NCBI GenBank assembly: GCA_020630595.1
Contig: JAHDBC010000027.1
Location: 1-32,600, forward strand
Source of the DNA: Planktomarina sp.
GTDB taxonomy: Bacteria > Pseudomonadota > Alphaproteobacteria > Rhodobacterales > Rhodobacteraceae
Direction: 5' to 3'
Length of the DNA: 32,600 nucleotides
Position 1 is the first letter of the stretch; each line of letters starts with the position of its first letter. The notes beneath the pieces are model-generated. The model was not told where the DNA came from, did no database searches, and saw only the letters and a program-made list of their open reading frames with translations. The position numbers and the translations under genes were made by a program. Shown one piece after another: positions 3,945-24,824 of the stretch.

Positions 3945-4035
3945 ATTATCATTGTAGAATCGCCATGGGTCTGATAAGACTTTAATCCCGTGGTTATGGC
4001 CGATTTTGGCCCCATTAACGCGGGGGACGTTTCCA

Positions 4036-5679
<1,644 letters not shown>

Positions 5680-5881
5680 CACCCGCTTTCAGCGGTGGCG
5701 CGACACAAGATCATGGGCAGATGCGACGCCAGATCGGGCCCTGTCCGGAACCAAGTCGTCAGTGATTCGTTAACGTGGCACAAACCACGGAGACCCGCTG
5801 ATGCTTTCCACCGGACAAAAACCCTTTGCAATTGAACGGTATCGCGTTCAGGCTTTTCTCAGAACGATTTTGGACCGACCG

Positions 5882-6319
5882 ATGTTTGAACGCCTTCTTT
5901 CGCTGTTTGAAAAACACCCGACCTATCAAACACCATTGCCGCAGGCCGATGCTGGGCACGCATTCGGCGCGCTGTTGGTGCGTATCGCCAAAGCAGACAG
6001 TGCCTATCTGTTCGAAGAATTGGAAAGCATTGACCACATTCTGGCGGATCGGTTTGGGCTGAACCCTGTGGCCGCTGCCAAATATCGTGCGGAATGTGAA
6101 AAGCTGGAAGAAGCGATGCCCGACACGGCGGCGCTTTCCCAAATTCTTATCGAAGAACTGAACCACGAAACACGCGCGGGCATGGTCACCCAAATGTGGG
6201 AAGTCTTGATGGCCGATGGGTTCAAACACCGCAAAGAAGAAGAAGTCGTGGCCGAAGTTGCATCGGTTTTCGGGATGTCTGCCGATCACGTGAAAGCGTT
6301 GCGGCCTGACGACAGCTGA
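5882..6319 (+). CDS. TerB-family protein, first of a tandem pair
   Basis: A 145-residue soluble helical protein. It shares layout with the next gene: an 'MFERLLSLF' start, a helix 'AFGALLVRIAKADSAYLFEELESID', then 'EMWEVLMADGF'-like and 'VASVFGMSADHV' segments. This is the acidic metal-binding helical plan of TerB and DjlA N-terminal domains. The ATG at 5882 is preferred because it gives nearly the same length as the 144-aa paralog and the same MF start. The ATG at 5801 has a better GGAG site, but it would add 27 residues with codons (AGA, CGA, CTC) unusual here. TerB proteins are linked to tellurite and envelope stress, but most single-copy relatives have no proven role. The 202-nt region before it (5680-5881) holds no other gene that I can support. 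Confidence 0.8.
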   Translation: MFERLLSLFEKHPTYQTPLPQADAGHAFGALLVRIAKADSAYLFEELESIDHILADRFGLNPVAAAKYRAECEKLEEAMPDTAALSQILIEELNHETRAGMVTQMWEVLMADGFKHRKEEEVVAEVASVFGMSADHVKALRPDDS

Positions 6320-6327
6320 CCCCCCTG

Positions 6328-6356
6328 TTGCAACACATGCGCATGCGCCCTACCTG
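6328..6356 (+). promoter_or_regulatory. Putative promoter placing the next gene as leaderless
   Basis: TTGCAA (6328-6333) and TACCTG (6351-6356) are spaced by 17 nt. The predicted transcription start falls within about one base of the ATG at 6363. No ribosome-binding sequence is seen before that ATG, which fits a leaderless mRNA. This is weak evidence from motif reading. Confidence 0.3.
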
Positions 6357-6362
6357 TGCATC

Positions 6363-6797
6363 ATGTTTGGAAAACTGATCGCCAGCCTGACGGCAGACGC
6401 GCCCGACCCTTTGGATGAAAACGACACGCAACTTGCGCTTGCTGCGCTGATGGTGCGTCTTGCGCGGACCGACGGGTCATATGACGATGATGAAATCGCG
6501 GTCATTGATCAGATGCTGATGCAACACTTTGGGCTGACCGACGGCGCCGCTGCCGCCAAACGGGCAGAAGCGGAAACGGTCGAAGCACAAGCGCCGGACA
6601 CCGTACGCTTTACCCGCGCGATCAAAGAAACCGTGGCATGGGACGACCGGTTCGGCGTTATCAAGGCGCTGTGGTCTGTGGTGTTGGCCGATGGCGTGCG
6701 CGATGATGAAGAAGATGCGCAAATGCGCCTGATCGCCAATCTGCTGGGGATCAATGATCGTGATTCCGCACTGGCCCGGCAGGCGGCGAAAGTGTGA
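6363..6797 (+). CDS. TerB-family protein, second of a tandem pair
   Basis: A 144-residue acidic helical protein with the same layout as its upstream neighbour: 'MFGKLIASL' start, 'LAALMVRLARTDGSYDDDEIAVIDQML', 'IKALWSVVLADGVRDDEEDAQMRLIANLLGI'. The 'DGSYDDDE' and 'DGVRDDEE' pair, each following a hydrophobic helix, is the repeated acidic signature of TerB/DjlA domains and could bind divalent metal. The first copy has lost part of this signature ('ADSAYLFEE'), so the two copies have diverged. The stop codon overlaps the GTG start of the PhnD-like gene (GTGA), which implies translational coupling. Role unknown. Confidence 0.85.
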   Translation: MFGKLIASLTADAPDPLDENDTQLALAALMVRLARTDGSYDDDEIAVIDQMLMQHFGLTDGAAAAKRAEAETVEAQAPDTVRFTRAIKETVAWDDRFGVIKALWSVVLADGVRDDEEDAQMRLIANLLGINDRDSALARQAAKV

Positions 6798-7583: not shown

Positions 7584-8351
7584 GTGACACATCCGATTCT
7601 GGACATTCAAGACCTGCACAAATCCTATGGGGATTTAGAGGTGCTGAAGGGTGTGTCCATTCAGGCAAACGCAGGCGATGTTGTCAGCCTGATCGGATCA
7701 TCCGGGTCTGGCAAATCGACCCTTTTGCGGTGTTGCAATCTGTTGGAAGTGTCACAGGCCGGAACGATCGCCTTTGATGGGGAACCTGTCGTTTGGTCCG
7801 GTACAGGTGCGCGCCGCAAACCCGCCAGTGCGGCCCAAGTCACGCGGATGCGCACCAATCTGTCGATGGTGTTTCAACAGTTCAACCTGTGGGCCCATAT
7901 GACGATCCTTCAAAACGTGATGGAAGCCCCGGTTACAGTTCTGAAACGCGATAAGGCGGCGACCGAAACCCTGGCCCGTGATCTGCTGGCCAAAGTCGGC
8001 ATTGGCGACAAATGTGATGTGTTTCCGGCGCAACTGTCGGGTGGTCAGCAGCAACGCGCGGCGATTGCCCGCGCTTTGGCAATGCAACCGCAGGCGCTGT
8101 TGTTTGATGAACCAACATCTGCGCTGGACCCTGAATTGGAACAGGAAGTGATCAAAGTCATCAAGGATTTGGCCGCCGAAGGGCGCACGATGCTGATCGT
8201 GACCCATGATATGGCCATGGCCCGCGATGTATCTGACCACGTTGTGTTCCTGCACAATGGATTGATCGAAGAACAAGGGCCACCGGCCGACTTGTTTGGC
8301 AATCCAAAATCCGAACGACTGCAGCAGTTCTTGTCTGCTGTGGCCGCTTAA
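7584..8351 (+). CDS. ABC transporter ATP-binding protein, polar amino-acid type
   Basis: The ATPase subunit of a HisP/GlnQ-type importer powers uptake through the two permeases encoded at 10312 and 11175. In the 255-residue protein, the Walker A loop 'GSSGSGKST' is at residues 38-46, the Q-loop at 'MVFQQFN' (about 96-101), the signature 'LSGGQQQR' at 151-158 and Walker B 'ALLFDEP' at 171-177 with catalytic Glu176. The switch His is in 'LIVTHDMAMA'. The start is GTG at 7584. A segment around residues 65-90 ('VVWSGTGARRKPASAAQ') matches the longer basic-amino-acid transporter ATPases. The periplasmic binding protein gene follows by 26 nt and is probably in the same operon. Confidence 0.93.
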   Translation: MTHPILDIQDLHKSYGDLEVLKGVSIQANAGDVVSLIGSSGSGKSTLLRCCNLLEVSQAGTIAFDGEPVVWSGTGARRKPASAAQVTRMRTNLSMVFQQFNLWAHMTILQNVMEAPVTVLKRDKAATETLARDLLAKVGIGDKCDVFPAQLSGGQQQRAAIARALAMQPQALLFDEPTSALDPELEQEVIKVIKDLAAEGRTMLIVTHDMAMARDVSDHVVFLHNGLIEEQGPPADLFGNPKSERLQQFLSAVAA

Positions 8352-8377
8352 CCATTGTTCATCCACGGGAGAGACTG

Positions 8378-9103
8378 ATGAAAAAACTGGTACTGACAAC
8401 GGCCGTTCTGGCCATTACGGCAGGCGCGGCCTTTGCTGCAAGCCATGGTAAAACGATCCGCATGGGAACCGAAGGCGCGTATGCACCCTATAACTTCCTG
8501 GACGATAACGGCGAAGTTGCAGGGTTCGAACGTGAACTGGGCGATGAACTGTGCGCACGCGCTGAATTGACATGCGAATGGGTCACCAACGAATGGGACA
8601 GCATCATTCCAAACCTGGTGTCTGGCAACTACGACACGATCATGGCCGGCATGTCCATTACAGCTGAACGGGATGAAGTCATCGACTTCACACAGGGCTA
8701 CACCCAGCCTGATCCATCCGTGTATCTGGCAATGTCAGACGACGTTGATTTGGCTGGCGGCGTGATCGCCGCGCAAACAAGCACGATCCAAGCGGCATTC
8801 ATCGCAGCGTCCGGCGCGACCTTGGTTGAATTCGCGACACCAGAAGAAACCATTGCTGCTGTGAAAAACGGCGAAGCTGACGCCGTTCTGGCCGACAAAA
8901 GCTTTCTGGAACCCATCGCGGCTGAAGATTCAGATTTGATGATGCTGGCACAGCAGGAATTGATCGGTGGCGGCGTTGGCATGGGCGTGCGCGAATCCGA
9001 TGGTGAACTGCGTGAAAAATTCGACGCAGCCATCACATCCATGAAAGAAGACGGCACATTGAATGCGCTGATCGAAAAATGGGGCGTTGGCGAACCGTTC
9101 TAA
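8378..9103 (+). CDS. Periplasmic amino-acid/amine binding protein of ABC importer
   Basis: A 241-residue binding protein of the HisJ/ArgT (SBP_bac_3) family. Residues 1-20 form a Sec signal peptide with probable cleavage after 'AFA'. The mature start 'KTIRMGTEGAYAPYNFLDDNGEVAGFE' is the hallmark of this family. 'GMSITAERDEVIDFTQGY' and 'VKNGEADAVLADKSFL' are further family signatures. The acidic, aromatic-lined pocket residues suggest a cationic or polar ligand such as lysine, arginine, ornithine or a related amine, but the ligand cannot be fixed from sequence. GGGAGAG lies before the ATG. A strong terminator follows at 9127-9151, which separates this half of the transporter from its permeases. 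Confidence 0.93.
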   Translation: MKKLVLTTAVLAITAGAAFAASHGKTIRMGTEGAYAPYNFLDDNGEVAGFERELGDELCARAELTCEWVTNEWDSIIPNLVSGNYDTIMAGMSITAERDEVIDFTQGYTQPDPSVYLAMSDDVDLAGGVIAAQTSTIQAAFIAASGATLVEFATPEETIAAVKNGEADAVLADKSFLEPIAAEDSDLMMLAQQELIGGGVGMGVRESDGELREKFDAAITSMKEDGTLNALIEKWGVGEPF

Positions 9104-9126
9104 GGCGGATTGTTTAACTCAAACGG

Positions 9127-9151
9127 AAAAGGGGCCACCGCGGCCCCTTTT
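9127..9151. terminator. Bidirectional rho-independent terminator
   Basis: AAAAGGGGCC (9127-9136) pairs perfectly with GGCCCCTTTT (9142-9151) around a 5-nt loop, and TT follows. The A-tract also supplies a T-tract to the minus strand. It ends the ATPase-binding protein unit, and it abuts the stop codon of the convergent FAD oxidoreductase at 9152. Confidence 0.85.
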
Positions 9152-10207
9152 TCATGTTACGGCAAAGCGATCCGGGCGATAGGGCGCAAGCCAATCGATT
9201 GTCTGGTTCGTTGCGCCGCGCATCACTTCCTGTGAAATCAGATCACCCATCAAGGCCGCAAGCGTCACACCCGAATGCATAACGGCCGCATAAACGCCGG
9301 TGCAAACCGCCCCAACAATTGGCACCCCATCACAGGGCATCGGACGATGCGCCAAAGTCAAACCAGCAGATGTCAGGCCCAAATCCGGGAACAGGCTGGT
9401 CAACCGGCCCATGGCATCGGCCTGCAGCGTGTCCAGTCTGGTACCCGCCGCATCGCCGTGATCCGATTGATGGTTCACATCGGTCGGCATGACAAAAACC
9501 CCATCAGATCGCTGCCGAATATCGCCAACCGGCGTCGCCAGAACATGGCGACTGACACGTCTGGCAGGTTGCGTGTGCAATACAAATGTCGGACTGGGCC
9601 GCAAGCAAAGATCGGCCCCCAACCCGGCTATCAGACGTTGGGTCTGTGTTCCCGCAGCAACCACAATGTCATCGGCACAAAGGGTGCCAAAAGCGGTATG
9701 GACCTTGCCCGGTGACAGGGCATCCACCCGCACCCCACGCACCACAGATGCCCCGCTTTGGGCCAACATGCGCGTCGCGCAGTCTGCCGCATCGATGACC
9801 TGTTCGCTTGGAAAAAACAACGCGGCGTCCGGTGGCCTGGCCACCCCCGGTTCCAGCTTTGAAAATTGATCCTTGGATATCCATTCGACCGGATAATCCA
9901 GATCTTTCAGGGTAGCGTATTGCCGGTGCAGGCCATCTTCGGGCTGATCCCACGCCAGGCTTCCCTGCGCCAAAGGTTGAACCCCCAGCGCGGCCAGCAG
10001 CGTTTGCCACGCTTGCATCCCGGCCGCGCGCAGGCGGAAATGATCGGCATTGGCAAAATAGCTGGCATTCACCCAGCCGAAACTGGCGTCTGTGGCACGG
10101 TCCGCGCCTGCATCGATGACCGTCACATCTGCACCGGCCCGCGCAAGGTGCCAGGCGGCCGACGCCCCGATGATGCCAGCCCCAACAATGATGATTTTCT
10201 GTGCCAT
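9152..10207 (-). CDS. DadA/glycine-oxidase-type FAD-dependent oxidoreductase
   Basis: A 351-residue flavoenzyme of the D-amino-acid dehydrogenase/glycine oxidase family. The N-terminal FAD-binding loop 'IIIVGAGIIGASAAWHLA' (GxGxxG at residues 9-14) is followed by 'VTVIDAG'. The C-terminal region has 'AHRPMPCDGVPIVGAV' and 'AVMHSGVTLAALMGDLISQ', the typical second flavin-contact block. These enzymes oxidise amines or amino acids to imines and ketones. The ATG at 10207 is chosen because it starts one residue block before the FAD loop; a GTG at 10237 would add ten residues. The gene lies antisense between the two halves of an ABC transporter, so it may process the same imported substrate, or it may be an insertion. 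The specific substrate is unknown. Confidence 0.88.
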   Translation of the reverse strand: MAQKIIIVGAGIIGASAAWHLARAGADVTVIDAGADRATDASFGWVNASYFANADHFRLRAAGMQAWQTLLAALGVQPLAQGSLAWDQPEDGLHRQYATLKDLDYPVEWISKDQFSKLEPGVARPPDAALFFPSEQVIDAADCATRMLAQSGASVVRGVRVDALSPGKVHTAFGTLCADDIVVAAGTQTQRLIAGLGADLCLRPSPTFVLHTQPARRVSRHVLATPVGDIRQRSDGVFVMPTDVNHQSDHGDAAGTRLDTLQADAMGRLTSLFPDLGLTSAGLTLAHRPMPCDGVPIVGAVCTGVYAAVMHSGVTLAALMGDLISQEVMRGATNQTIDWLAPYRPDRFAVT

Positions 10208-10253
10208 ACTATGCCCTAGGCCGTTGGACCCAATCACTCAACCCCGACAGGCG

Positions 10254-10291
10254 TTGACAGTTGCGCGCCATCAGCGTTTGACTGACGCAAC
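10254..10291 (+). promoter_or_regulatory. Consensus -35 hexamer overlapping an inverted repeat before the permease operon
   Basis: TTGACA (10254-10259) is a perfect -35 hexamer. At 17 nt spacing the -10 is poor (TTTGAC), as in an activator- or repressor-dependent promoter. GTTGCG (10260-10265) plus TCAG (10271-10274) is the reverse complement of CTGACGCAAC (10282-10291), apart from a 5-nt bulge. The inverted repeat would cover the promoter, so an operator is plausible. Confidence 0.35.
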
Positions 10292-10311
10292 CGCACCCCA
10301 AGGATCCGTGC

Positions 10312-11178
10312 ATGTTTTCATATTGCAGTGACCCCGATTTGTTGTCTGGCCTGACATGGTTGTCATGCTATCTGACAACCGGAAAACATATGCTGTTTTA
10401 CCAGTCGTTTTTCGTGGTGCTTTTGTTGTTGGCGATCACCGCGCCGGCTGCGCTGGCCTTCGGGTTTGGCGGTGCCATGGCGGCCCGGTCGCGAATTGCG
10501 CCGCTGTCTTGGCTGGGAAAGCTGTATATTTCGGCGGTCCGTGGTGTGCCGGATATCGCGTTCTTCTTGTTTTTCGTCATCGCGCTGGATCAGGGGTTCG
10601 AATATCTGCGCCATCAGGTCATATGTCCCGATTGGACAGATCCGATCCGACAGGGCAATGATTTCGTCGTATGTGATGCGGCCAAATTGCCCCTGAATTC
10701 CGCCCCGCAATGGCAGCATGAAATCTATGGATTTTTCACTGCAATCTTGACCTATGCAATTGTGTTTGGCGCCTTTGCGGCCAATGTGCTGTTTGGTGCC
10801 ATGCGGGCTGTTCCGAAGGCGCAACTGGAAACCGCAGAAGCGTATGGCATGTCGCGCAAACAAACATTCTGGCGCGTTTTGGTCCCACAGATGTGGATTT
10901 ATGCGCTGCCCGGTCTTTCGAACCTGTGGATGGTGCTGATCAAGGCGACGCCGCTTTTGTTTCTTTTGGGGATCGAAGACATTGTGTATTGGGCGCGCGA
11001 ACTGGGTGCCACGAAACAGGCCCGGTTCAGTGATTATCCCCATGGCGACTGGCGGCTTTGGTATTTTCTGGCGTTGCTTGTGTTTTATCTGGCGTTCACG
11101 CGCCTGTCTGAAATTGTGCTGGATCGCCTGACCCAGCGGCTGTCCAAGGGGCAAGCCTTTGCCGGGGGTGTCGCATGA
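10312..11178 (+). CDS. ABC transporter permease, HisQ-type
   Basis: The first inner-membrane permease subunit of the polar amino-acid importer (288 aa). It has several membrane helices, and the cytoplasmic EAA loop 'AEAYGMSRKQTFWRVLVPQ' that docks on the ATPase, followed by 'LSNLWMVLIKATPLLFLLG'. Between early helices it carries an extra loop, about residues 103-140 ('VICPDW ... FVVCDAAK'), with two cysteines; typical HisQ proteins have a shorter loop here. The start at 10312 has AAGGA at good spacing. The gene overlaps the next permease by ATGA. It heads an operon that runs into the glutamine synthetase-like genes, and its ATPase and binding protein lie upstream across the antisense oxidoreductase. 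Confidence 0.9.
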   Translation: MFSYCSDPDLLSGLTWLSCYLTTGKHMLFYQSFFVVLLLLAITAPAALAFGFGGAMAARSRIAPLSWLGKLYISAVRGVPDIAFFLFFVIALDQGFEYLRHQVICPDWTDPIRQGNDFVVCDAAKLPLNSAPQWQHEIYGFFTAILTYAIVFGAFAANVLFGAMRAVPKAQLETAEAYGMSRKQTFWRVLVPQMWIYALPGLSNLWMVLIKATPLLFLLGIEDIVYWARELGATKQARFSDYPHGDWRLWYFLALLVFYLAFTRLSEIVLDRLTQRLSKGQAFAGGVA

Positions 11179-11975
11179 GCTGTTGGCAAACCGTTCAAGA
11201 CTACGCGCTGCGTTCGATAGGCTACGGTGAACGCCAACTGCCGAAAACGGATTTCACCCTTTGCGAACATTTCACGCTGATCGGGTCCGGGCTGATTTGG
11301 AATGTCTATTTCGGCATTCTGGCCCTGTTGATCGGCTTTTTCATTGCAAACGCGATTGCAGCAGGCAAAGCCTATGGGCCGCGGTGGCTGCGAAAACTGT
11401 GTGATTGGTTTATCCTGATCTTTCGGGGATCACCGCTGTTTATCCAGTTCTTCTTGGCCTATTTCATCTTTCTGCGCCTGAAACAGGTGGGGATTTTGCC
11501 GTTTTTGACTGCGGCGCAGGCGGGGGCGTTGTTGGTTTTGATCCTGAATACGGCCGCTTATTCCGCACAGATCTTTTATGGTGCACTGATGTCCGTGCCA
11601 AAGGGCGATGTCGAAGCGGCATCGGCTTATGGGTTTACAGGGTGGAACCGATTTCGCCGGATTGTCTGGCCCACAACGCTGCGCCTTGCATGGCCCGCCT
11701 ATACGAACGAAGCGATCTTTCTGTTTCATGCCACGACATTGGTCTTTTTCAGCGGCTTTCCCGCGTGGCAACAACGGGGGGACGCGCTGTATTACGCCAG
11801 TTATTTTGCGGACAAAACATTCAACCCGTTCGTCCCCTATCCGATCCTTGCGTTTTATTTCATCCTTTTGACGTTGGTGATCATTGGCCTGTTCGGTCTG
11901 GTCAATCGGCGTTTGAACCGGCACCTGCCCGGCGCAACACCGAAACTGCGGTACAGGCCGCAATTGATCAGATGA
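11175..11975 (+). CDS. ABC transporter permease, HisM-type
   Basis: The second permease subunit (266 aa), pairing with the preceding HisQ-type protein. Membrane helices begin near residue 35 ('LIWNVYFGILALLIGFFIANAI' region). 'FILIFRGSPLFIQFFLAYF' is the characteristic N-terminal permease motif, and the EAA loop is 'VEAASAYGFTGWNRFRRIVWP'. It is joined to its neighbours on both sides by 4-nt ATGA overlaps, so permeases and the first glutamine synthetase-like enzyme are translationally coupled. This ties transport directly to glutamylation of the imported compound. Confidence 0.9.
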   Translation: MSCWQTVQDYALRSIGYGERQLPKTDFTLCEHFTLIGSGLIWNVYFGILALLIGFFIANAIAAGKAYGPRWLRKLCDWFILIFRGSPLFIQFFLAYFIFLRLKQVGILPFLTAAQAGALLVLILNTAAYSAQIFYGALMSVPKGDVEAASAYGFTGWNRFRRIVWPTTLRLAWPAYTNEAIFLFHATTLVFFSGFPAWQQRGDALYYASYFADKTFNPFVPYPILAFYFILLTLVIIGLFGLVNRRLNRHLPGATPKLRYRPQLIR

Positions 11976-13234
11976 GCCTTCGCATCGCCGCCGTTGACCT
12001 GAACGGTCAGTTTCGGGGCAAGCGCGTTCCGTCCCACGCGGTTGGAAAACGCGCGAATATGCCATTGTCCGTTTTGAACGTTGATATCGAAGGCGCCGAT
12101 ATCCAAGGATCGCCCCTTGTGTTTGCAACAGGCGATCAGGACGGCATTTTGGTGCCATACCGCGACCCGCTGCCCCTGCCGTGGTTGGGAAACACAGCAC
12201 TTTTGCAGCCTGCCATGATGACAACGGACGGTGATACCGGTTTTGCGGGCGATCCCCGTCAGGCCTTGATCGCGGTTCTTGATCGGTATGCGGCCAGTGG
12301 ACGATCCGTGATCGCGGCCTGTGAATTGGAATTCTACCTGTTAGAGGCTGACGGGGCCATGGCCCCTGCCTTGAACCCCGTTACGGGACGGCGTCTGTCC
12401 AAAACCAGCATCTTATCCATTCGTGAAATGGACGGTTTCAACGCATTCTTTGACGACATCGAACAGGGTGCCGCCGCAATGGGCATTGCCGATTTGACAA
12501 TCACGGCAGAAGCGGGCGTGGGCCAATTCGAAGTCACCTTGGCCCATGGCCCGGCCCTGCAAGCGGCAGATGACGTCGTCTTGTTGAAAGAATTGATCAA
12601 GGGAACGGCCCGCGCCCACGGCATGGCGGCCACATTCATGGCAAAGCCGTTTCCTTCGGAAAGCGGGAATGGCCTGCACACGCATTTTTCTGTTCTTGAA
12701 GGGGATCAAAACATCTTTACCGATGCGCCAACGTTGCAATCGGCGGTGGCAGGATGTTTGGATCATTTCACGGCATCAACATTGATTTTCGCGCCTTACA
12801 GCAATTCCTATGCACGTTTCGTGAATTCTGCCCATGCACCCACATCAGCAACATGGGGCCACGACAACCGCACGGTTGCGGTGCGCATCCCGGCGGGCTC
12901 CGCATCCGCCACACGTCTGGAACACCGGGTCGCGGGGGGCGATGTGAACCCCTATCTGTTGTATGCCGCAATTTTTGGCGCCGCGTTGCAAGGGATGGAC
13001 CGAAATCTTGTTCCACCCGATCCTGTCACGGGCAACGCGTATGAACAAACTGGCACAACACAGGTTTCACCATCATTGGAAACGGCGATTGCGGATTTCA
13101 GCACAGGCCGGTGGGACGATATCTTTCCGCCGCTTTTGGTCGAAAACCTGATTGCGACCAAACAGCAGGAACTGCGCCTATTCGGTGCATATTCCGACAC
13201 AGAAGCCCTTTGGAAACTTGTGGAAACTGTCTGA
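11972..13234 (+). CDS. Glutamine synthetase-like gamma-glutamyl-amine ligase, copy 1
   Basis: A 420-residue GS-fold ligase of the PuuA group, which joins glutamate to an amine using ATP. The N-terminal signature 'DLNGQFRGKRVP' (residues 9-20) is typical of this group rather than of GlnA. Active-site residues appear intact: E118/E120 in 'CELEF', E180 and E187 in 'AEAGVGQFEVTL', H236/H238 in 'GNGLHTHFS', R300 and R305 in 'DNRTVAVRIP', and E317/R319 in 'LEHRVAGGDVNPYL'. The ATG at 11972 overlaps the permease stop; the same frame is open upstream from 11405, but that part lies over the permease gene. It differs widely from the second copy at 13990, so the two may act on different amines or as hetero-oligomers. 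Confidence 0.9.
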   Translation: MSLRIAAVDLNGQFRGKRVPSHAVGKRANMPLSVLNVDIEGADIQGSPLVFATGDQDGILVPYRDPLPLPWLGNTALLQPAMMTTDGDTGFAGDPRQALIAVLDRYAASGRSVIAACELEFYLLEADGAMAPALNPVTGRRLSKTSILSIREMDGFNAFFDDIEQGAAAMGIADLTITAEAGVGQFEVTLAHGPALQAADDVVLLKELIKGTARAHGMAATFMAKPFPSESGNGLHTHFSVLEGDQNIFTDAPTLQSAVAGCLDHFTASTLIFAPYSNSYARFVNSAHAPTSATWGHDNRTVAVRIPAGSASATRLEHRVAGGDVNPYLLYAAIFGAALQGMDRNLVPPDPVTGNAYEQTGTTQVSPSLETAIADFSTGRWDDIFPPLLVENLIATKQQELRLFGAYSDTEALWKLVETV

Positions 13235-13294
13235 CCCCTTTCCAACCCCTGCGTTCCCCCGTATCGTTGCGCAAACACATCAAAAGAGGTTCCG

Positions 13295-13993
13295 ATGTTG
13301 ATCGGCATACTCCAAACTGGGCACGCGCCGGACCCGGTTCAGGAACACCACGGCGATTTCAAGGAAATGTTCGCCCGGCTGCTGGATGGCCATGGATTTT
13401 CGTTTCAGCACTGGGATGTCGTCGACGGGGATTTTCCGGCGTCGGTCACCGATGCAGACGGCTGGCTTGTGACGGGATCGAAACATGGCGCTTACGAAGA
13501 CCATGCCTTTATCCCGCCTTTGGAAGATTTCATCCGCGCGTGCTACGCCGATGGCCGCCCCATGGTGGGCGTATGTTTCGGCCACCAGATCATTGCACAG
13601 GCAATGGGGGGCAAGGTTGAAAAATATGACGGTGGTTGGGCTGTCGGCCATCAAGATTATTCTTACAATGGGACCAATCTGTCACTGAATGCATGGCATC
13701 AGGATCAGGTCGTTGATCTGCCACCCGATGCCTGTGTGATCGGTTCAAATGACTTTTGCGCAAATGCCGCGCTGGTCTATGGCAACCGCATTTATACGAT
13801 CCAACCGCACCCCGAACTGCGCAATCCGATCATCGAAGACTATCTGAAAGTGCGCGGATCAGATCCCACCTATCCCCGCGACTTGATCAACAGGGCGCAG
13901 GATTTGGTGGATGCGCCGACAGCTGATCTTCAAATCGCGGCGGATATGGCTGCCTTTTTCAAAGGGACGTTTATGCCAGAGGTGACATCATGA
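13295..13993 (+). CDS. Class I glutamine amidotransferase-like hydrolase
   Basis: A 232-residue stand-alone class I GATase domain. The nucleophile Cys94 is in 'VGVCFGHQIIAQAMGG', and His172/Glu174 in 'IQPHPE' complete the triad. A gamma-glutamyl bond hydrolase is the natural reading here: it sits between two glutamylating ligases, and in the Puu pathway PuuD releases glutamate from gamma-glutamyl-GABA. By sequence it is closer in style to GMP-synthase-type GATase domains (MLIGILQTG start) than to E. coli PuuD. An ammonia-supplying or amide-hydrolysing role is therefore also possible. AGAGG precedes the ATG. The stop overlaps the start of the second ligase by ATGA, implying equal expression. 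Confidence 0.88.
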   Translation: MLIGILQTGHAPDPVQEHHGDFKEMFARLLDGHGFSFQHWDVVDGDFPASVTDADGWLVTGSKHGAYEDHAFIPPLEDFIRACYADGRPMVGVCFGHQIIAQAMGGKVEKYDGGWAVGHQDYSYNGTNLSLNAWHQDQVVDLPPDACVIGSNDFCANAALVYGNRIYTIQPHPELRNPIIEDYLKVRGSDPTYPRDLINRAQDLVDAPTADLQIAADMAAFFKGTFMPEVTS

Positions 13994-15342
13994 CATGGCT
14001 GGACAAGGTGCCGCAATCCGCGCGGGATTATGTGGCACACAATACCCTGGATGAAGTGGAATGCATCATCGCAGATTATCCGGGCGTGGCCCGTGGCAAG
14101 GCGGTGCCTGCGGCCAAATTTGCCAAAACCAACAGCTTTTACCTGCCCAATTCGATCTACATGCAAACGATCACTGGCGAATGGGCCGAAGCGGCCGGGC
14201 CAGAAGGCTGGATCGAACCGGACATGACGCTGATCCCGGATTATTCGACCACGACCGCAGCGCCGTGGACGGGGGATTGGACATTGCAAGTCATCCATGA
14301 CGCCATTGGCCGTGATGGTGCCCCCATCCCATTTGCCCCGCGCAATGTGTTGAAACGGGTGGTCCAACTGTTTCGGGATAAGGGGCTGACCCCAGTGGTT
14401 GCCCCTGAAATGGAATTTTTCCTTGTTGCGAAAAACACAGACCCCGCCCAGGTGATCAAACCGATGATGGGGCGGTCCGGTCGGCCCGCAGCCGCCCGAC
14501 AGGCATACAGCATCAGCGCGGTCGATGAATACGGTCCCGTCATCGACGACATCTATGATTTCGCCGAAGCGCAAGGATTTGAAATCGACGGCATCACCCA
14601 AGAAGGCGGTGCTGGTCAGGTTGAAATCAACCTGAATCATGGGGACCCGGTGAAATTGGCCGACGAAGTCTTTTTCTTCAAACGCCTGATCCGCGAAGCG
14701 GCGCTGAAACACGATTGTTATGCGACCTTTATGGCAAAGCCCATTGCCGAAGAACCCGGGTCTGCCATGCACATTCATCATTCGTTTCTGGATGCGGATG
14801 GCAACAATATATTCAGCGGTCCACAGGGCGGGGAAACGGATGCATTTTTCCATGTGATTGCGGGGATGCAAAACCACTTGCCGTCCGTGATTGCGATGCT
14901 TGCGCCCTATGTGAACAGCTATCGACGTTATGTGAAAGACCACGCCGCCCCGATCAATCTGGAATGGGCGCGTGACAATCGCACGACCGGCATTCGCATT
15001 CCCCTTTCAACCCCGGACGCGCGGCGGGTGGAAAATCGGCTGGCTGGCATGGACTGCAACCCGTACCTTGGCATCGCGGCTTCGCTGGCCTGTTGTTATC
15101 TGGGTCTTGAAGATCAAAAACGGCCAAGCGCATCCTACAAGGGCGATGCCTATGATGGCGAAGAAGCCATCCCGCGCGACATTTTTTCCGCACTTGACCT
15201 GTTCGAAGGGTCAGACCGGTTGCATGATATCCTGCACCCCGAATTTGCGCGGGTCTATTCGATCGTGAAACGCACAGAACACGAAGAATTCTTGCATGTG
15301 ATTTCACCGTGGGAACGTGAACATCTGCTGCTGACCGTCTGA
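13990..15342 (+). CDS. Glutamine synthetase-like gamma-glutamyl-amine ligase, copy 2
   Basis: A 450-residue GS-family ligase resembling gamma-glutamylpolyamine synthetase PuuA. 'DYPGVARGKAVP' (residues 29-40) is the N-terminal signature. Active-site residues are E140/E142 in 'APEMEFF', E205 and E212 in 'QEGGAGQVEINLNHGD', H261/H263 in 'GSAMHIHHSF', R331 and R336 in 'DNRTTGIRIP', and E348/R350 in 'RVENRLAGMDCNPYL'. It is longer than copy 1 and has a more PuuA-like N-terminus. The expected reaction is ATP-dependent glutamylation of putrescine or another amine in the cytoplasm. It is coupled to the GATase by a 4-nt overlap, and the PuuB-like oxidase starts 3 nt after its stop. Confidence 0.92.
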   Translation: MTWLDKVPQSARDYVAHNTLDEVECIIADYPGVARGKAVPAAKFAKTNSFYLPNSIYMQTITGEWAEAAGPEGWIEPDMTLIPDYSTTTAAPWTGDWTLQVIHDAIGRDGAPIPFAPRNVLKRVVQLFRDKGLTPVVAPEMEFFLVAKNTDPAQVIKPMMGRSGRPAAARQAYSISAVDEYGPVIDDIYDFAEAQGFEIDGITQEGGAGQVEINLNHGDPVKLADEVFFFKRLIREAALKHDCYATFMAKPIAEEPGSAMHIHHSFLDADGNNIFSGPQGGETDAFFHVIAGMQNHLPSVIAMLAPYVNSYRRYVKDHAAPINLEWARDNRTTGIRIPLSTPDARRVENRLAGMDCNPYLGIAASLACCYLGLEDQKRPSASYKGDAYDGEEAIPRDIFSALDLFEGSDRLHDILHPEFARVYSIVKRTEHEEFLHVISPWEREHLLLTV

Positions 15343-15345
15343 CGG

Positions 15346-16647
15346 ATGAGCTTTCTGTTCGCAAACGAAAAGCAGGGCCACTATCCCGACAGTTGGTATG
15401 TTGCCAGTTCAGAAACCCTGCCTGCGTGCCCATCCCTGCGCGGTGATGCGGTCGCAGATGTGTGCATCATCGGCGCGGGCTTTACTGGACTGTCGGCTGC
15501 ACTGCATTTGGCAGGCAGCGGGCTGTCCGTGGTTGTGCTGGACGCGCACCGTGTGGGCTTTGGCGCATCAGGGCGCAACGGGGGGCAAGTTGGGTCTGGT
15601 TTGAACTGGGATCAGACGGACCTTGAAGAAAGGCTGGGCACCACCGCAGCCCACCAGATCTGGGATATGACAGAAGCGGCCAAATCTTTGGTACATGCAC
15701 TGGCAACAACCCATGCCCCCGAAGCGGGGATCGAACCGGGTGTCTGCCACGCAGACTTCAACGCCAAAGACCGCGATGCCGCCCACAAAGAAGCTGCGCA
15801 TTTGTCGGCCAACTACGGCTATGATCAGATTGAATGCCTGGACACGCATGGTCTGGCCGATGTGATCAAAACAGACCGCTACCGGGGCGGGGTGATCGAT
15901 TGGGGCGCATGGCATCTGCATCCCATGCGCTATGCTTTGGGGCTTGCCCGCGCGGCCTTGGACGCGGGGGCAGTCATCTTTGAAAAATCGGCTGTACATC
16001 ACGTCAAGCCCGGCCAACCCAACATAGTGCAAACGGACAAAGGCCGTGTGCGCGCGAAATGGGTTCTGCATGCAACCAACGGATATCATACGAGCCTGAA
16101 CCGTGTGCAGGCCGCGCGTGTTATGCCGATCAACAATTATCTGGTTGCCACTGCACCCTTGGTGGATCCGTCAGATGTTTTGACCAAACGTATCGCAGTC
16201 GCAGATAACAAGTTCGTTCTGAATTATTATCGTCTGTCCCATGACAACCGGCTGATATTTGGGGGCGGCGAAAGTTATGGCAAACGCTTTCCCGACGATA
16301 TGTTTTCAAAAGTGCGCAAGCATCTGATCGATATTTTTCCACACATGGCACATGTCGAACTGACCCACGCATGGGGCGGCACGTTGGGCATCACGCCATC
16401 CCGATTGCCACTGTTTGCCCAAGTGGCCCCCCATCAACTGACCGCATCAGGGTATTCGGGTCATGGCGTGGCCATGGCGACATTTGCGGGCAAAATTCTG
16501 AGCGATGTTGTACAGGGGCAATCGGGGCAGTTTGATATTCTGTCAAAACTGCCGCTGCCGCCCTTTCCCGGCGGGCAAATCCTGCGGGGGCCGATCATGA
16601 CGCTTGCAATGACGTGGTTCGCGCTGCGTGATCGGTTGGGCGTCTAA
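15346..16647 (+). CDS. puuB: PuuB-like gamma-glutamyl-amine FAD oxidase
   Basis: A 433-residue FAD-dependent oxidoreductase. The GxGxxG loop 'GAGFTG' is at residues 43-48, followed by 'GASGRNGGQVGSG', the combination seen in gamma-glutamylputrescine oxidoreductase PuuB. The late motif 'TASGYSGHGVAMATFAGKIL' is the family's C-terminal flavin-contact block. It would oxidise the gamma-glutamylated amine made by the neighbouring ligases to an aldehyde. The N-terminus 'HYPDSWYVAS' also matches PuuB. The start is 3 nt from the ligase stop. The gene ends 2 nt from the stop of the convergent lytic transglycosylase, with no terminator between. The symbol is by similarity; the exact substrate is not shown. 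Confidence 0.88.
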   Translation: MSFLFANEKQGHYPDSWYVASSETLPACPSLRGDAVADVCIIGAGFTGLSAALHLAGSGLSVVVLDAHRVGFGASGRNGGQVGSGLNWDQTDLEERLGTTAAHQIWDMTEAAKSLVHALATTHAPEAGIEPGVCHADFNAKDRDAAHKEAAHLSANYGYDQIECLDTHGLADVIKTDRYRGGVIDWGAWHLHPMRYALGLARAALDAGAVIFEKSAVHHVKPGQPNIVQTDKGRVRAKWVLHATNGYHTSLNRVQAARVMPINNYLVATAPLVDPSDVLTKRIAVADNKFVLNYYRLSHDNRLIFGGGESYGKRFPDDMFSKVRKHLIDIFPHMAHVELTHAWGGTLGITPSRLPLFAQVAPHQLTASGYSGHGVAMATFAGKILSDVVQGQSGQFDILSKLPLPPFPGGQILRGPIMTLAMTWFALRDRLGV

Positions 16648-19069: not shown

Positions 19070-19136
19070 TTGTCTTAATTTGGCCCGAAAGCAGGCGCAT
19101 GACCTGTACAAAAAAGTGAACCTAGAGGCAGGTCAC

Positions 19137-20540
19137 ATGAGAGCAGCAAAATTATTGGGCGCCGCAGCTGTCGGCGTTCTTCTGGCTATGGGTGCGCCCA
19201 TGGCACCGATTGTACAGGCCGACACGTTGCATGTTTTGCGGGGTGCCGCCAGCAGACCATTGAACGTGCCCATGAACCGGGCTGTGGTGGTTGAAAGCGA
19301 AACACCGTTTGCAGAACTGTCCATCGCCAACCCACAGATTGCGGACATTTCAACCCTGTCTGATCGCACGATCTACGTTCTGGGAAAGACCCCCGGTCGT
19401 ACGACACTGACCCTGTTGGGTCTGGATGGGCGGTTGATCACCAGCGTCGAAGTCCACGTCGCCCCGGACATCGCAGAATTCAAAGAACGCCTGCGCCAGA
19501 TCATGCCCAACGAACGCATCGAAGTGCGCACCGCAAACGATGGCGTCGTGCTGTCCGGGACCGTGTCCAGCCAATCCAAACTTGACCGGGCGCTTGCGCT
19601 TGCACAACGTTACGCACCGGACCGGGTTTCGAACTTGATGATTGTCGGCGGCAATCAGCAGGTGATGCTGAAAGTCCAATTTGCCGAAATGCAACGGTCT
19701 GTTCGAAAGTCTTTGTCAAATTCATTGCTGTTTACAGACGGTGGTCGGATCACAGGCGGGTCTGGTGGATATGGCAACACGAATGCCTTGAACAATTCCG
19801 GGACATTTTCCGGCAGCGCGCCCAGCGCAGGCCAACTGCGAATTGGGTTTGGGGGCGGTTCTGTGCAGCTGGGTCTGGTCATTGATGCCTTGGAAAGCCA
19901 GGGCGTTGTACGCACACTTGCCGAACCCAACCTGATCGCGCTGTCCGGCCAAGAAGCCAAGTTTCTTGCCGGCGGCGAATACCCGATCCCGGTTGTGTCT
20001 GACGGAAGCACAAGCATTCAGTACCGCCCGTTTGGGATTGAGCTGAATTTTACCCCTACAGTGATTGATGATGGCACGATCCAGCTGCAGCTTGCCACGT
20101 CGGTCAGTTCGATCGACAGTGCAAATGGTGTGACCGCATCGGGCATATCCGTCAGCGCCTTTCGCAAACGCGAAGCATCGACAACCGTGGAAATGCGCGA
20201 TGGGGAAAGTTTTGCCATTGCCGGGCTTTTGCAAGATGATTTTCAGGATTTGAAAGGCCAGGTCCCGTGGTTGGGTGACATTCCTGTTTTGGGGATCTTG
20301 TTCCGGTCGGTAGAATACGAACGGGCCCAATCTGAATTGGTGATCATCGTCACCCCCCACTTGGTCAATCCCGTCCGCGGCGAGGCATTCGCCCTGCCCA
20401 CGGATCGTGTTGTTCCGCCAACCGAACGTGATCTGTTCCTGAACGGTCAACTGACGGGCAGTGCGCCGCCACGGTCTGGCGCAGCGCGTGAAGTTGCAAA
20501 TCAACAGTTCAGTGGATCGTATGGCTATGTCATGGATTGA
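19137..20540 (+). CDS. cpaC: Tad pilus outer-membrane secretin CpaC/RcpA
   Basis: A 467-residue secretin that forms the outer-membrane channel of the Tad pilus. A signal peptide covers residues 1-28 (probable cleavage after 'VQA'). The N-terminal domain ('RPLNVPMNRAVVVESETPFAELSIANPQIAD') is the pilus/secretion N-domain. A BON-like segment ('RIEVRTANDGVVLSGTVSS') follows, then the secretin barrel core with 'EPNLIALSGQEAKFLAGGEYP' and the closing 'VPWLGDIPVLGILFRS'. The ATG at 19137 is chosen for its AGAGG site and because it begins the signal peptide; a TTG at 19080 would add 19 non-signal residues. The 3' end overlaps the OmpA-family gene by 20 nt. Confidence 0.95.
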   Translation: MRAAKLLGAAAVGVLLAMGAPMAPIVQADTLHVLRGAASRPLNVPMNRAVVVESETPFAELSIANPQIADISTLSDRTIYVLGKTPGRTTLTLLGLDGRLITSVEVHVAPDIAEFKERLRQIMPNERIEVRTANDGVVLSGTVSSQSKLDRALALAQRYAPDRVSNLMIVGGNQQVMLKVQFAEMQRSVRKSLSNSLLFTDGGRITGGSGGYGNTNALNNSGTFSGSAPSAGQLRIGFGGGSVQLGLVIDALESQGVVRTLAEPNLIALSGQEAKFLAGGEYPIPVVSDGSTSIQYRPFGIELNFTPTVIDDGTIQLQLATSVSSIDSANGVTASGISVSAFRKREASTTVEMRDGESFAIAGLLQDDFQDLKGQVPWLGDIPVLGILFRSVEYERAQSELVIIVTPHLVNPVRGEAFALPTDRVVPPTERDLFLNGQLTGSAPPRSGAAREVANQQFSGSYGYVMD

Positions 20541-21135
20541 AGAAATGCAGTGGGACCCGCAATCAAAAGCCATTTGTGCGCTGGTTCTGGCGATCACGAT
20601 TGGCTGTGCGAACGTTCAACCCCCAAACAGCGCTGTGGCGTCTGTCAATCTTGATGCGCTTGGCTTTGCAGAAGCAAAGGCGAACCTGACGGTCACAGAA
20701 CAAACCGCCGCCCGGCTTGCGGTCGCAAAATGGTTTGCAGTCCACATCCCCACAAAGATCAGCTTTGCCAATGGGCGCAGTCATCTGTCTGCCGATGCCC
20801 GGCGCGCATTGACACAACAGGCTGATTTCATGAAACTTTTCCCTGAAATCGGATTTTACATCTATGGGCACGCGGACACCCGTGAATTGGGTGACGCAAC
20901 CGTTGCGCTTTCCGCAGCACGGGCACGGGCCGTTCACGATTTCCTGATCGCAAGCGGCGTTCCAGCGGCGCAACTTCAAGGCCAGATCGCGCGGGGCAGC
21001 GCGGACGTATCGCCCGCTTTGGCGTCTGATGCAGGCAATCGGCGCGTCGTCACAGAACTGGCGTCTTTCTTGGTGACCGATGTGCCCAGCCGGGACGATC
21101 TGATGATGCGCGTGTCTGCGCCCAATTCACCTTAA
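20521..21135 (+). CDS. OmpA-family outer-membrane/peptidoglycan-associated protein of the tad locus
   Basis: A 204-residue exported protein. After a short polar start comes a hydrophobic segment 'ICALVLAITIGC', where Cys29 might be lipidated, although the lipobox is poor (T-I-G-C). The C-terminal half is an OmpA-like peptidoglycan-binding domain: 'ISFANGRSHLSADARRALTQQADFM', 'IYGHADTRELGDATVALSAARARAVHDFL'. It would tether the secretin complex to the cell wall. It occupies the position often held by a CpaD or OmpA-type gene between cpaC and cpaE. The start at 20521 lies inside the end of cpaC; ATG 20527 is an alternative. A stem-loop begins immediately after its stop. Confidence 0.85.
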   Translation: MAMSWIEEMQWDPQSKAICALVLAITIGCANVQPPNSAVASVNLDALGFAEAKANLTVTEQTAARLAVAKWFAVHIPTKISFANGRSHLSADARRALTQQADFMKLFPEIGFYIYGHADTRELGDATVALSAARARAVHDFLIASGVPAAQLQGQIARGSADVSPALASDAGNRRVVTELASFLVTDVPSRDDLMMRVSAPNSP

Positions 21136-21168
21136 AGGGCGGATTTGGTCTCAAATTTGCCCTGTTTT
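21136..21168 (+). terminator. Intra-operon attenuator-like stem-loop between ompA-like gene and cpaE
   Basis: AGGGCGGATTTG (21136-21147) and CAAATTTGCCCT (21152-21163) form a 12-bp RNA stem with two G-U pairs and a 4-nt loop. GTTTTG follows. The stem begins at the base after the TAA stop. It is likely a partial terminator that lowers expression of the cytoplasmic machinery genes downstream. Confidence 0.65.
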
Positions 21169-21226
21169 GTTGCGACTGCTGGGCAGAGGCAATCTGTACG
21201 GATCACCAAAGGTCTGACGGCGAGAC

Positions 21227-22453
21227 ATGAACATGACTGAAAACACTCAAACTCAGACCACTTCTGCGCTGCGGGCGTGCTTGGTTGTGCGTGATCCCGA
21301 TGCATTCGCACTTTTGATTGAAGACATGTCCGAAGCATTGGGCGACGCGTGGGGCGAACTGAACCCGTCAGAAGCGCATGTATTCCTGAACCAACCCGAT
21401 GCCCACACGATGGATTGCATCATCGTAGCGGTCGATGAAGATGATCGCGATACCCTGCCAACTGTGGCTGCGGTGTTGGAACGGGCCAAGTCCGTTGGTG
21501 TGCCTGCGTTGTTGGTGGCCGAAGATCTGACCGCCACAGAACTGCACCGCCTGATCCAAGCGGGTGCCAAAGATTTCCTGCCCTATCCTTTGCCACAGGG
21601 CGCATTGGCACGGGCGATCGAAGGATTGAAATCAATCCTGCCCCCCGTTTCTGCCCCGGCGCCGGCCCCCTCCCCCGTTTCGGGAAAGAATGGGGCCTTG
21701 TTCGTTGTTCAAGGGCTTGCGGGGGGAACAGGCGCAACAACGCTGGCTGTTGGTCTTGCTGATGAATTGGCGGAACTGGGATCACACCGTGTGTGTCTGA
21801 TCGATCTGGACCTGCAATTCGGATCTTGCGGCAGCGCGCTGTCGTGCCAACCACGCGAAACGGTTCTGGATCTTTTGACCAATGTCGACACGGTTGATGC
21901 GGATGGCTTCACCCAGGCCCTGCAGCACCGGCCAAATGGGTTGCAGGTTCTGACTGCGCCGGGCGAAATCGTGCCCTTGGATATGATTTCTGATGCGGGT
22001 CTGGCCCGGCTTCTTTCGATTGCGCAGGCCGAATTCGATTACGTCGTGGTCGATATGCCGAAATCGATTGTTGGCTGGTCAGAAATCGTTCTGACAAGCG
22101 CAGACGTTGTGTTTTGCCCCATTGAACTGGACATTCGGTCTGCACAGGCCGCGTCGCGGTTCCGCGCGATCCTGTCGGCGGAAAGCATCGCGCTGGAACA
22201 ACTGCGGTTTGTTTTGAACCGTGCACCGAAATTTACAGACCTTGCCGGGAAATCCCGCGTCAAACGCTTGGCAGAGGTTTTGCAATCATCGCTTGATATC
22301 CTGCTTCCCGATGGCGGTCGTGTGGTTGCAAATGCGGCCGATCAGGGCGTTCCCCTTTCCGAAGCGGCCCCAAAATCAATTTATCGGCGGGATGTTCAGT
22401 TTCTGGCCCGCAGCATTGCGGAACATGGTCTGTCCGGCGACGTCGCGGCCTGA
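21227..22453 (+). CDS. cpaE: Tad pilus localisation ATPase CpaE/TadZ
   Basis: A 408-residue MinD/ParA-type protein that positions the Tad machinery at a cell pole. The N-terminal 120 or so residues form a response-regulator-like domain without an obvious phosphorylated Asp context ('ACLVVRDPDAFALLIEDMSEALG', 'LIQAGAKDFLPYPLPQGALARAIEG'). The ATPase domain follows: deviant Walker A 'GGTGATT' at residues 166-172 with Ala170 in place of the P-loop Lys, then 'VCLIDLDLQFGSCG' and 'FDYVVVDMPKS'. Loss of that Lys is known in atypical TadZ proteins. The start at 21227 has GAGAC upstream; ATG 21233 is an alternative. cpaF follows by 2 nt. Confidence 0.92.
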   Translation: MNMTENTQTQTTSALRACLVVRDPDAFALLIEDMSEALGDAWGELNPSEAHVFLNQPDAHTMDCIIVAVDEDDRDTLPTVAAVLERAKSVGVPALLVAEDLTATELHRLIQAGAKDFLPYPLPQGALARAIEGLKSILPPVSAPAPAPSPVSGKNGALFVVQGLAGGTGATTLAVGLADELAELGSHRVCLIDLDLQFGSCGSALSCQPRETVLDLLTNVDTVDADGFTQALQHRPNGLQVLTAPGEIVPLDMISDAGLARLLSIAQAEFDYVVVDMPKSIVGWSEIVLTSADVVFCPIELDIRSAQAASRFRAILSAESIALEQLRFVLNRAPKFTDLAGKSRVKRLAEVLQSSLDILLPDGGRVVANAADQGVPLSEAAPKSIYRRDVQFLARSIAEHGLSGDVAA

Positions 22454-22455
22454 CC

Positions 22456-23858
<1,403 letters not shown>

Positions 23859-23862
<4 letters not shown>

Positions 23863-24824
23863 CGGGAACGGAACTGGCCATATATGCGCTGGCGTTTCTG
23901 GGCGTCTTTGTCATCGTCGAAGGCGTCTATTTGCTGTTTTTCGGCAAGTCGATCACGCTTTACAATCGTGTCAGCGACCGGCTGGACGATCTGAACAAGA
24001 CCCATCAGCATGCATCGACACTGGCGCAGTTGCGCAAGGATCTTGTGGATGGGCACGACAGATCCCCCCTGCCCTTTCGCACCGTCCTGACGGATATGGC
24101 CCGCCGCGCAGGATTGGGCATCACCGCGCGCCAGATCATCATGGTTATGGCGCTGTTGTCCGCATTTCTGACGCTGTTGATTGCGATGACCGCAGGCACC
24201 GGCTGGCTTCCGGCCTTTCTTTTGGGGGCGCTTTTGGGCGTTGCCCTGCCCCTGGTCTGGATAAATGCCGCAGAAAAACGTCGCTTGAAACAGCTGGAAG
24301 AACAGCTGCCTGATGCAGTTGATCTTATGGTGCGTTCATTGAAAGTGGGGCACCCAATTTCGGCGTCCATCGCGATTGTGGCCAGTGAAATTCCAGAACC
24401 GTTGGCGACTGAATTTGCATTGATCAGCGACGAAGCGGCCTATGGCCGTGATATCAGCGATGCGCTCATGGCCTTGGCGGACCGTTTGAATCTGAACGAT
24501 TTGCGATTTCTGGCCGTCGCCATTTCGATCCAGCAACAGTCGGGCGGCAATCTATCAGAAATTCTGGATGGATTGTCCAAGGTGATCCGCGCCCGATTCC
24601 GCCTGTTTCGCCGGGTCAAGACCATCACCGCCGAAGCCAAATGGTCTGGCATGTTCCTGACCCTTTTTCCGGTCGTTGGGTTTTTGGGGATTATGGTGTT
24701 CAAACCCGACTATTACGCCCAAGTGCAGGCTGATGGCTATTACGGTTGGGGCGTCCTGATCGTTTGTGCTTTCATGTTGGTGAACCTGATCGCGATGCGC
24801 ATCATCGTAAACGTCAAGGTGTGA
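23859..24824 (+). CDS. tadB: Tad inner-membrane platform protein TadB
   Basis: A 321-residue inner-membrane protein with a T2SF (GspF-like) domain. There is one N-terminal helix, then a pair around residues 95-135 ('IIMVMALLSAFLTLLIAM', 'PAFLLGALLGVALPLVWINAA'). The cytoplasmic T2SF segment follows ('LPDAVDLMVRSLKVGHPISASIAIVASEIPEPL', 'QQQSGGNLSEILDGLSKVIRARFRL'), and then C-terminal helices. With TadC it forms the platform above CpaF that extracts pilins from the membrane. Its ATG overlaps the cpaF stop by 4 nt, and tadC begins 4 nt after its stop. Confidence 0.94.

Follow-up and report, generated by a model that had tools for sequence, protein, structure and literature searches.

A putative gamma-glutamylation operon in Planktomarina pairs two divergent ligases with a basic-amino-acid-type importer

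Introduction

The described systems closest to the locus treated here catabolize amines by gamma-glutamylation. The Puu cluster of Escherichia coli (puuP, puuA, puuD, puuR, puuC, puuB and puuE) has one ligase and the permease PuuP, with PuuC and PuuE encoded alongside. In Pseudomonas aeruginosa, the divergent operons spuABCDEFGH-spuI combine an ATP-binding cassette (ABC) importer with glutamine amidotransferase (GATase) and glutamine synthetase (GS)-like genes, among them spuA and spuB. We analyzed a 32,600-nt stretch of DNA, hereafter the window, from Planktomarina sp. (Rhodobacteraceae; assembly GCA_020630595.1, contig JAHDBC010000027.1, positions 1 to 32,600; genome of 2.74 Mb, 94.5% complete, 63 contigs). 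It holds an operon for an ABC importer with its substrate-binding protein (SBP), two GS-fold ligases (LIG1 and LIG2), a GATase-fold protein and a PuuB-like oxidase dependent on flavin adenine dinucleotide (FAD), DAO2. Our preferred reading, with a probability of roughly 0.62, is that the operon encodes a Puu/Pau-type gamma-glutamylation pathway of amine catabolism in which the usual polyamine transporter has been swapped for a basic-amino-acid-type importer. It would be a variant of known systems, novel in its amino-acid-type importer and equipped with two intact ligases from separate lineages. Uptake routes for marine dissolved organic nitrogen are often named by homology alone; should this operon serve basic amino acids or diamines, a conserved transporter and two ligases of that nitrogen cycle would gain a substrate.

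An earlier sequence-only reading of the window had held that known Puu pathways use one ligase. This is wrong for P. aeruginosa, with its seven pauA, four pauB, one pauC and two pauD genes (PMC9397018). PauD2 is a class I GATase in the SpuI cadaverine route that gave no product after transfer to Bacillus methanolicus (PMC8274714), and several glutamylation genes are found in clusters of Pseudomonas putida, one of which also includes an ABC importer (PMC10606097). In these descriptions several GS-like ligases, PuuB-like oxidases, GATase-class hydrolases and an ABC importer occur in one system; more than one GS-like ligase with a GATase and an ABC importer was likewise found in the window and its relatives. 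The Pseudomonas importers are of Pot/Spu type, however, whereas that of the window is of HisJQMP/LAO type, and the aminotransferase SpuC and an aldehyde dehydrogenase are missing from the window operon. The two ligases matched PauA7 weakly in sequence (PDB 4hpp, E 1e-14 and 3e-16). Aniline and naphthylamine breakdown (AtdA1A2, NpaA1A2; GoaS enzymes) also pairs a GS-like ligase with a GATase-like hydrolase (PMC11335346); the window operon has an FAD oxidase and no Rieske dioxygenase.

Ligases, GATase and oxidase

The sequence-only reading had listed a polar amino-acid-type importer, two GS-fold ligases (420 and 450 aa), a class I GATase between them and a PuuB-like oxidase, all of which were recovered by Pfam at their expected positions (Table 1). 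Both ligases are homologous to E. coli PuuA (LIG1 37%, LIG2 36% identity). Their catalytic E, H and R residues, previously described as intact, proved so in alignment. Ten metal-, ATP- and glutamate-binding sites (equivalents of E129, E131, E212, E220, H269, R321, R339, R344, E357 and R359, with the genome's own GlnA as reference) were kept in 77/77 LIG1 and 58/58 LIG2 sequences, window included. The D50 site was variable, and the N264 site, unreliably placed in the alignment, was left unused. At the site of Glu327, part of the glutamine synthetase ammonia pocket, all 77 LIG1 sequences carry His and all 58 LIG2 sequences Ala or Ser. The possibility that LIG1 or LIG2 is an ordinary glutamine synthetase was rejected, given this absent Glu and scores far under the NCBIfam cut-offs for type I GlnA and type III GS. 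The genome has its own GlnA in addition to a type III/GmaS-like enzyme (TIGR03105, 647.5 bits vs cut-off 469.6).

A quick tree (57 rows, long branches; the row L144_LIG2p, in a wrong reading frame, was disregarded) placed LIG1 and LIG2 in separate clades, in line with the earlier claim that the two are divergent and with two distinct lineages. PuuA grouped with the LIG1 side (94% support) at an unresolved fork with long branches, and its placement is unsure.

E. coli PuuD gave no BLAST match to the window GATase at E 0.01. The closest solved relative of the window protein by sequence is instead Arabidopsis gamma-glutamyl peptidase 1 (GGP1; PDB 9k7i-9k7l), a plant enzyme with 22–23% identity whose substrate is expected to differ. 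The predicted structure (mb2fa69c95e36, mean predicted local distance difference test (pLDDT) 97.3) also matched GGP1 best (9k7j, TM-scores 0.89/0.84), ahead of the GMP-synthase domains among the matches listed, and the catalytic triad was invariant in 37/37 sequences. Since it models as GGP1, the protein is probably a hydrolase of gamma-glutamyl bonds; the alternative of a GMP-synthase-like glutaminase subunit was rejected in favor of this better fold match. DAO2 aligned to E. coli PuuB with 36% identity over 423 aa (E 2e-93). With ligase and oxidase homologous to those of E. coli at 36–37%, the same chemistry is expected.

The pathway-level mechanism is supported by homology, with individual roles predicted. 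The importer would take in a cationic alpha-amino acid or close analogue. The ligases would spend ATP joining the glutamate gamma-carboxyl to an amine. DAO2 would oxidize the resulting gamma-glutamyl amine at its free amine end, giving an aldehyde, and an aldehyde dehydrogenase encoded elsewhere, perhaps a PuuC-like one on contig C36, would convert this to the acid. The GATase would then split the acid into glutamate and an omega-amino acid. The most likely substrate of LIG2 and DAO2 is a small diamine (putrescine or cadaverine); LIG1 would be a second, losable ligase with another amine specificity.

The sequence-only reading had also noted PuuC and PuuE as missing, and indeed the operon contains neither an aldehyde dehydrogenase nor a class III aminotransferase, relatives of both being encoded elsewhere in the genome. 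The aldehyde dehydrogenase on contig C36 had PuuC as its best NCBIfam match, under cut-off (499.5 vs 850 bits). In the close relative L025, the gene directly after DAO2 encodes a class III aminotransferase, whose ortholog in the window's genome (81%) is on a different contig. Five ureohydrolase matches were found in the genome; of the four scanned, three pass the agmatinase equivalog and one that of arginase. A PotA-type ATPase in the genome scored above cut-off.

Importer and substrate

The importer is of the PF00497/HisPQM type and not of the Pot/Spu polyamine type, with all scores under NCBIfam equivalog or subfamily cut-offs. Its SBP, permeases and ATPase belong to the same group as the HisJ/ArgT (LAO) importers and PDB 3i6v, from which it differs in these low scores and in its coupling to ligases. 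The title of 3i6v, in truncated form, is 'Crystal structure of a periplasmic His/Glu/Gln/Arg/opine family-binding protein from Silicibacter pomeroyi in complex wi'. PDB titles of LAO mutants name D11, Y14, D30, F52, S69, S70, S72, R77 and D161; alignment with E. coli ArgT and HisJ placed the window equivalents at E32, Y35, E51, W73, A90, G91, S93, R98 and D173. R98, D173, S93 and Y35 are thus kept, and R98 and D173 (LAO Arg77 and Asp161) were invariant in 31/31 sequences, window included. In LAO, R77 and D161 hold the alpha-carboxylate and alpha-amine. Because the SBP keeps these residues of the alpha-amino-acid site, the importer probably takes up a cationic alpha-amino acid rather than a polyamine.

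These residues bear on an ordinary putrescine (Puu) pathway, in which the importer would take putrescine or another polyamine and the ligases would be redundant PuuA copies. We consider this unlikely: polyamines lack the groups that the conserved SBP residues presumably bind, and the ligases fall in different clades with different ammonia-site replacements. The homology of the ligases and DAO2 to PuuA and PuuB speaks for it, as do LIG2 paralogues beside Pot-type and agmatinase genes. So does an 'opine/polyamine ABC transporter' label on SPO2699-2702 of Ruegeria pomeroyi, which were up 3.1–5.4-fold in co-culture with Micromonas (PMC9870897); with an ATPase-SBP-permease-permease order that matches the window importer, they may be the same locus. 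Polyamine uptake in R. pomeroyi is, however, ascribed to potFGHI (PMC10130141).

Three of the four LIG2-like paralogue contexts fetched (52–61% identity) hold Pot-type genes or class III aminotransferases, in support of our preferred reading. One (L143) has PotF-like and PotG-like genes, both under equivalog cut-offs (460.5 vs 636 and 456.8 vs 613 bits), a potA subfamily match above cut-off, and an agmatinase (TIGR01230, 223 vs cut-off 174.3). Class III aminotransferases (subfamily PRK07480) adjoin the LIG2-like gene and oxidase in L142 and L144, and L139 has oxidases only.

The cationic-amino-acid type of the SBP (74% identity to 3i6v) would also suit direct glutamylation, in which LIG1 would couple glutamate to the omega-amine of lysine or ornithine, DAO2 would oxidize the product and the GATase would then take the glutamate off again. 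Importer and LIG1 without LIG2 beside them (genomes G066, G080, G118 and perhaps G098; Paracoccus plasmid L106) fit this route, as does LysA being the genome's only PF02784 decarboxylase match. We nevertheless judge it distinctly unlikely: the context of a Sinorhizobium LIG1-like gene (45%) is diamine-like, with genes for an agmatinase, an FAD oxidase and an aldehyde dehydrogenase close by, and no GS-fold enzyme is known to glutamylate free lysine. There is a slim chance of a combined route, with a lysine/ornithine-like amino acid imported, its side-chain amine glutamylated by LIG1, a downstream diamine or amino product glutamylated by LIG2, and DAO2 and the GGP1-like hydrolase shared; if true, marine bacteria would have a so far undescribed pathway for basic amino acids.

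We found no substrate assignment for the operon in the open-access literature searched. The accessible Phaeobacter inhibens literature offered a pipecolate-oxidase remark and unrelated fitness results only, and the operon was not described in the available parts of SAR11 polyamine, RCA-cluster and L. algarum papers.

Conservation and modularity

An SBP ortholog was present in 320/394 sampled Rhodobacteraceae genomes (E 1e-60). Gene order was compared in LIG1-anchored loci (the best 80 of 112, many cut by contig ends). All eight module genes occurred together in 43/80, so the arrangement is not chance, and the earlier claim of a gamma-glutamylation module tied to an importer is supported. LIG1 was followed by the GATase in 62 loci, the GATase by LIG2 in 58 and LIG2 by the oxidase in 55. 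Permease 2 lay upstream of LIG1 within 6 kb in 51/80 loci, at ≤300 bases in 48 of those.

In the window, 4-base ATGA overlaps join permease 1 to permease 2 (11175-11178), permease 2 to LIG1 (11972-11975) and the GATase to LIG2 (13990-13993), as the sequence-only reading had stated. Its proposal of translational coupling between importer and LIG1 applies to the window and not to the group at large: with start codons of relatives set by a script rule, the permease 2/LIG1 overlap of 4 bases recurred in only 14/51 relatives having both genes. GATase and LIG2 overlapped by 4 bases in 28, 1 base in 18 and 8 bases in 8 of 58 junctions.

Co-location was assessed in 80 selected genomes, of which 65 had a binding-protein match and 15 had none. 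They were searched for LIG1, LIG2 and SBP, with ortholog cut-offs of 46% for LIG1 (45% if near SBP) and 66% for LIG2, and nearness defined as within 12 kb on one contig; contig ends may hide neighbors (G098, G084). SBP, LIG1 and LIG2 clustered together in 45/80. LIG1 and LIG2 lacked a nearby SBP in six (in G084 perhaps through a contig break), and SBP lay beside LIG2 with no LIG1 ortholog in five. In four (G066, G080, G118 and G098, the last perhaps a contig break), SBP lay beside LIG1 with LIG2 elsewhere or represented by one 53% paralog. Neither ligase flanked SBP in six genomes, and 14 had neither an SBP match nor a linked ligase pair. Fetched stretches added importer-GATase-LIG2-oxidase (L130, L131, L133, L134), importer-LIG2 (L132), importer-LIG1-GATase (L135) and importer-LIG1 (L136, L137, and L106) arrangements, and in L138 the GATase-LIG2-oxidase block was inverted. 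Thus either of the two ligases may be missing next to the importer.

The earlier suggestion of a heteromeric ligase, with LIG1 and LIG2 as its subunits, did not hold up, since each of them is found next to the importer in loci that lack the other there; we regard it as extremely improbable. The ligases are near each other in 51 genomes (45 with and six without the importer nearby), and 59/59 genomes (of the 80) with a LIG1-like match (E 1e-80) also have a LIG2-like match (E 1e-120), as subunits would. Yet each ligase has a complete active site, and GS-fold enzymes are known as homo-oligomers. Moreover, LIG1 of the same-genus genome G009 is broken into two frames, one of them containing a stop, while LIG2 is open (assembly error possible). 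LIG1 of G028, from another genus, contains a stop as well, again possibly an assembly error. Within the genus, LIG1 is about 59–65% conserved, much below LIG2 (78–86%) and the permeases (73–83%).

Several results weigh against a Puu/Pau-type pathway with a swapped importer. The profile search proposed with the sequence-only reading left both ligases far under the PuuA equivalog NF045547 (164.4 bits for LIG1 and 170.2 for LIG2, cut-off 650). The SBP model (m1bb784f8cef7) had 3i6v as its top Foldseek match by E-value, with poor superposition (TM-scores 0.54/0.59), perhaps from domain closure, and the 3i6v match therefore rests on sequence. The 3i6v ligand is probably lysine; the truncated title breaks off before the ligand, and no pairing of 3I6V with lysine was found in the open-access literature searched. 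LysA was the sole PF02784 decarboxylase in the genome, so no lysine- or ornithine-to-diamine route was found (PF01276 was not searched). The parts of the module are also not strictly tied to each other. Eleven of the 80 LIG1-anchored loci have LIG1, GATase and LIG2 with no importer seen in the flank. Fourteen have LIG1 without importer, GATase or LIG2; 11 of these hold paralogues at 41–45%, and LIG1 orthologs (50–51%) stand without such neighbors in three (L052, which is cut, L075 and L081). The importer accompanies the GATase without a ligase in L145 and L146 and stands alone in L147, L148 and L149.

The importer-GATase pairs are what a salvage function would predict, with gamma-glutamyl amines or peptides imported and hydrolyzed by the GATase, whose likeness to gamma-glutamyl peptidase 1 would fit, as would opine-binding NocT/OccJ among the relatives of the SBP. 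Salvage leaves unexplained the ligases that make gamma-glutamyl bonds, and the importer has no adjoining GATase in L132, L136, L137 and L147–L149; we hold it to be very unlikely.

Gene layout and neighbors

Table 1. Predicted genes of the operon and the interposed DAO1
Feature	Coordinates	Strand	Evidence
ABC importer ATPase, HisP/EhuA-like	7584..8351	+	PF00005 (ABC_tran); GTG start; NCBIfam HisP best, 333.5 bits vs cut-off 466
Periplasmic substrate-binding protein (SBP), family 3	8378..9103	+	PF00497 (SBP_bac_3); 74% identity to PDB 3i6v (Silicibacter pomeroyi), phmmer E 6e-100
DAO1, second FAD-dependent oxidoreductase	9152..10237	-	PF01266 (DAO); between SBP and permeases
ABC permease 1, ArtQ/HisQ-like	10312..11178	+	PF00528 (BPD_transp_1); NCBIfam ArtQ 112.7 bits, under cut-off
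ABC permease 2, HisM-like	11175..11975	+	PF00528 (BPD_transp_1); NCBIfam HisM 127.8 bits, under cut-off
LIG1, GS-fold gamma-glutamyl amine ligase (predicted), 420 aa	11972..13234	+	PF00120 (Gln-synt_C) 279 bits
Class I GATase-fold gamma-glutamyl hydrolase (predicted)	13295..13993	+	PF00117 (GATase); Cys94-His172-Glu174 triad
LIG2, GS-fold gamma-glutamyl amine ligase (predicted), 450 aa	13990..15342	+	PF00120 (Gln-synt_C) 331 bits
DAO2, PuuB/AmaA-like FAD oxidase	15346..16647	+	PF01266 (DAO); NCBIfam AmaA 189.6 bits vs cut-off 600

DAO1, which splits the importer and went unmentioned in the otherwise accurate parts list of the sequence-only reading, had a same-strand relative in only 1/80 loci (L040, 46%) and is therefore probably a lineage-specific local insertion outside the conserved module; weak opposite-strand matches (26–28%) occurred in L058 and L083. 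The ATPase ortholog sits upstream of SBP in relatives. A DAO2 match on an R. pomeroyi plasmid (L105) had no ligase adjoining.

Rfam and tRNA searches of the window gave no matches. The window starts within a run of GAAGCC repeats (1-60). CTP synthase and two TerB-domain genes follow at 4006-6797, and the importer on the Paracoccus plasmid likewise has a CTP synthase and a TerB gene upstream. A PhnD-like protein (PF12974; 6794-7507, plus strand) immediately precedes the importer ATPase and has a relative in 36/80 loci. Downstream, at 19080-24821, lies a Tad-type pilus cluster (secretin, AAA, type II secretion system ATPase and TadB/TadC genes). Elsewhere in the genome (L167, G000:C17:1-12000), a GmaS-like ligase (TIGR03105 above cut-off) adjoins a protein that resembles glutamate synthase by eye, a pair that suggests the N-methylglutamate pathway of methylamine use.

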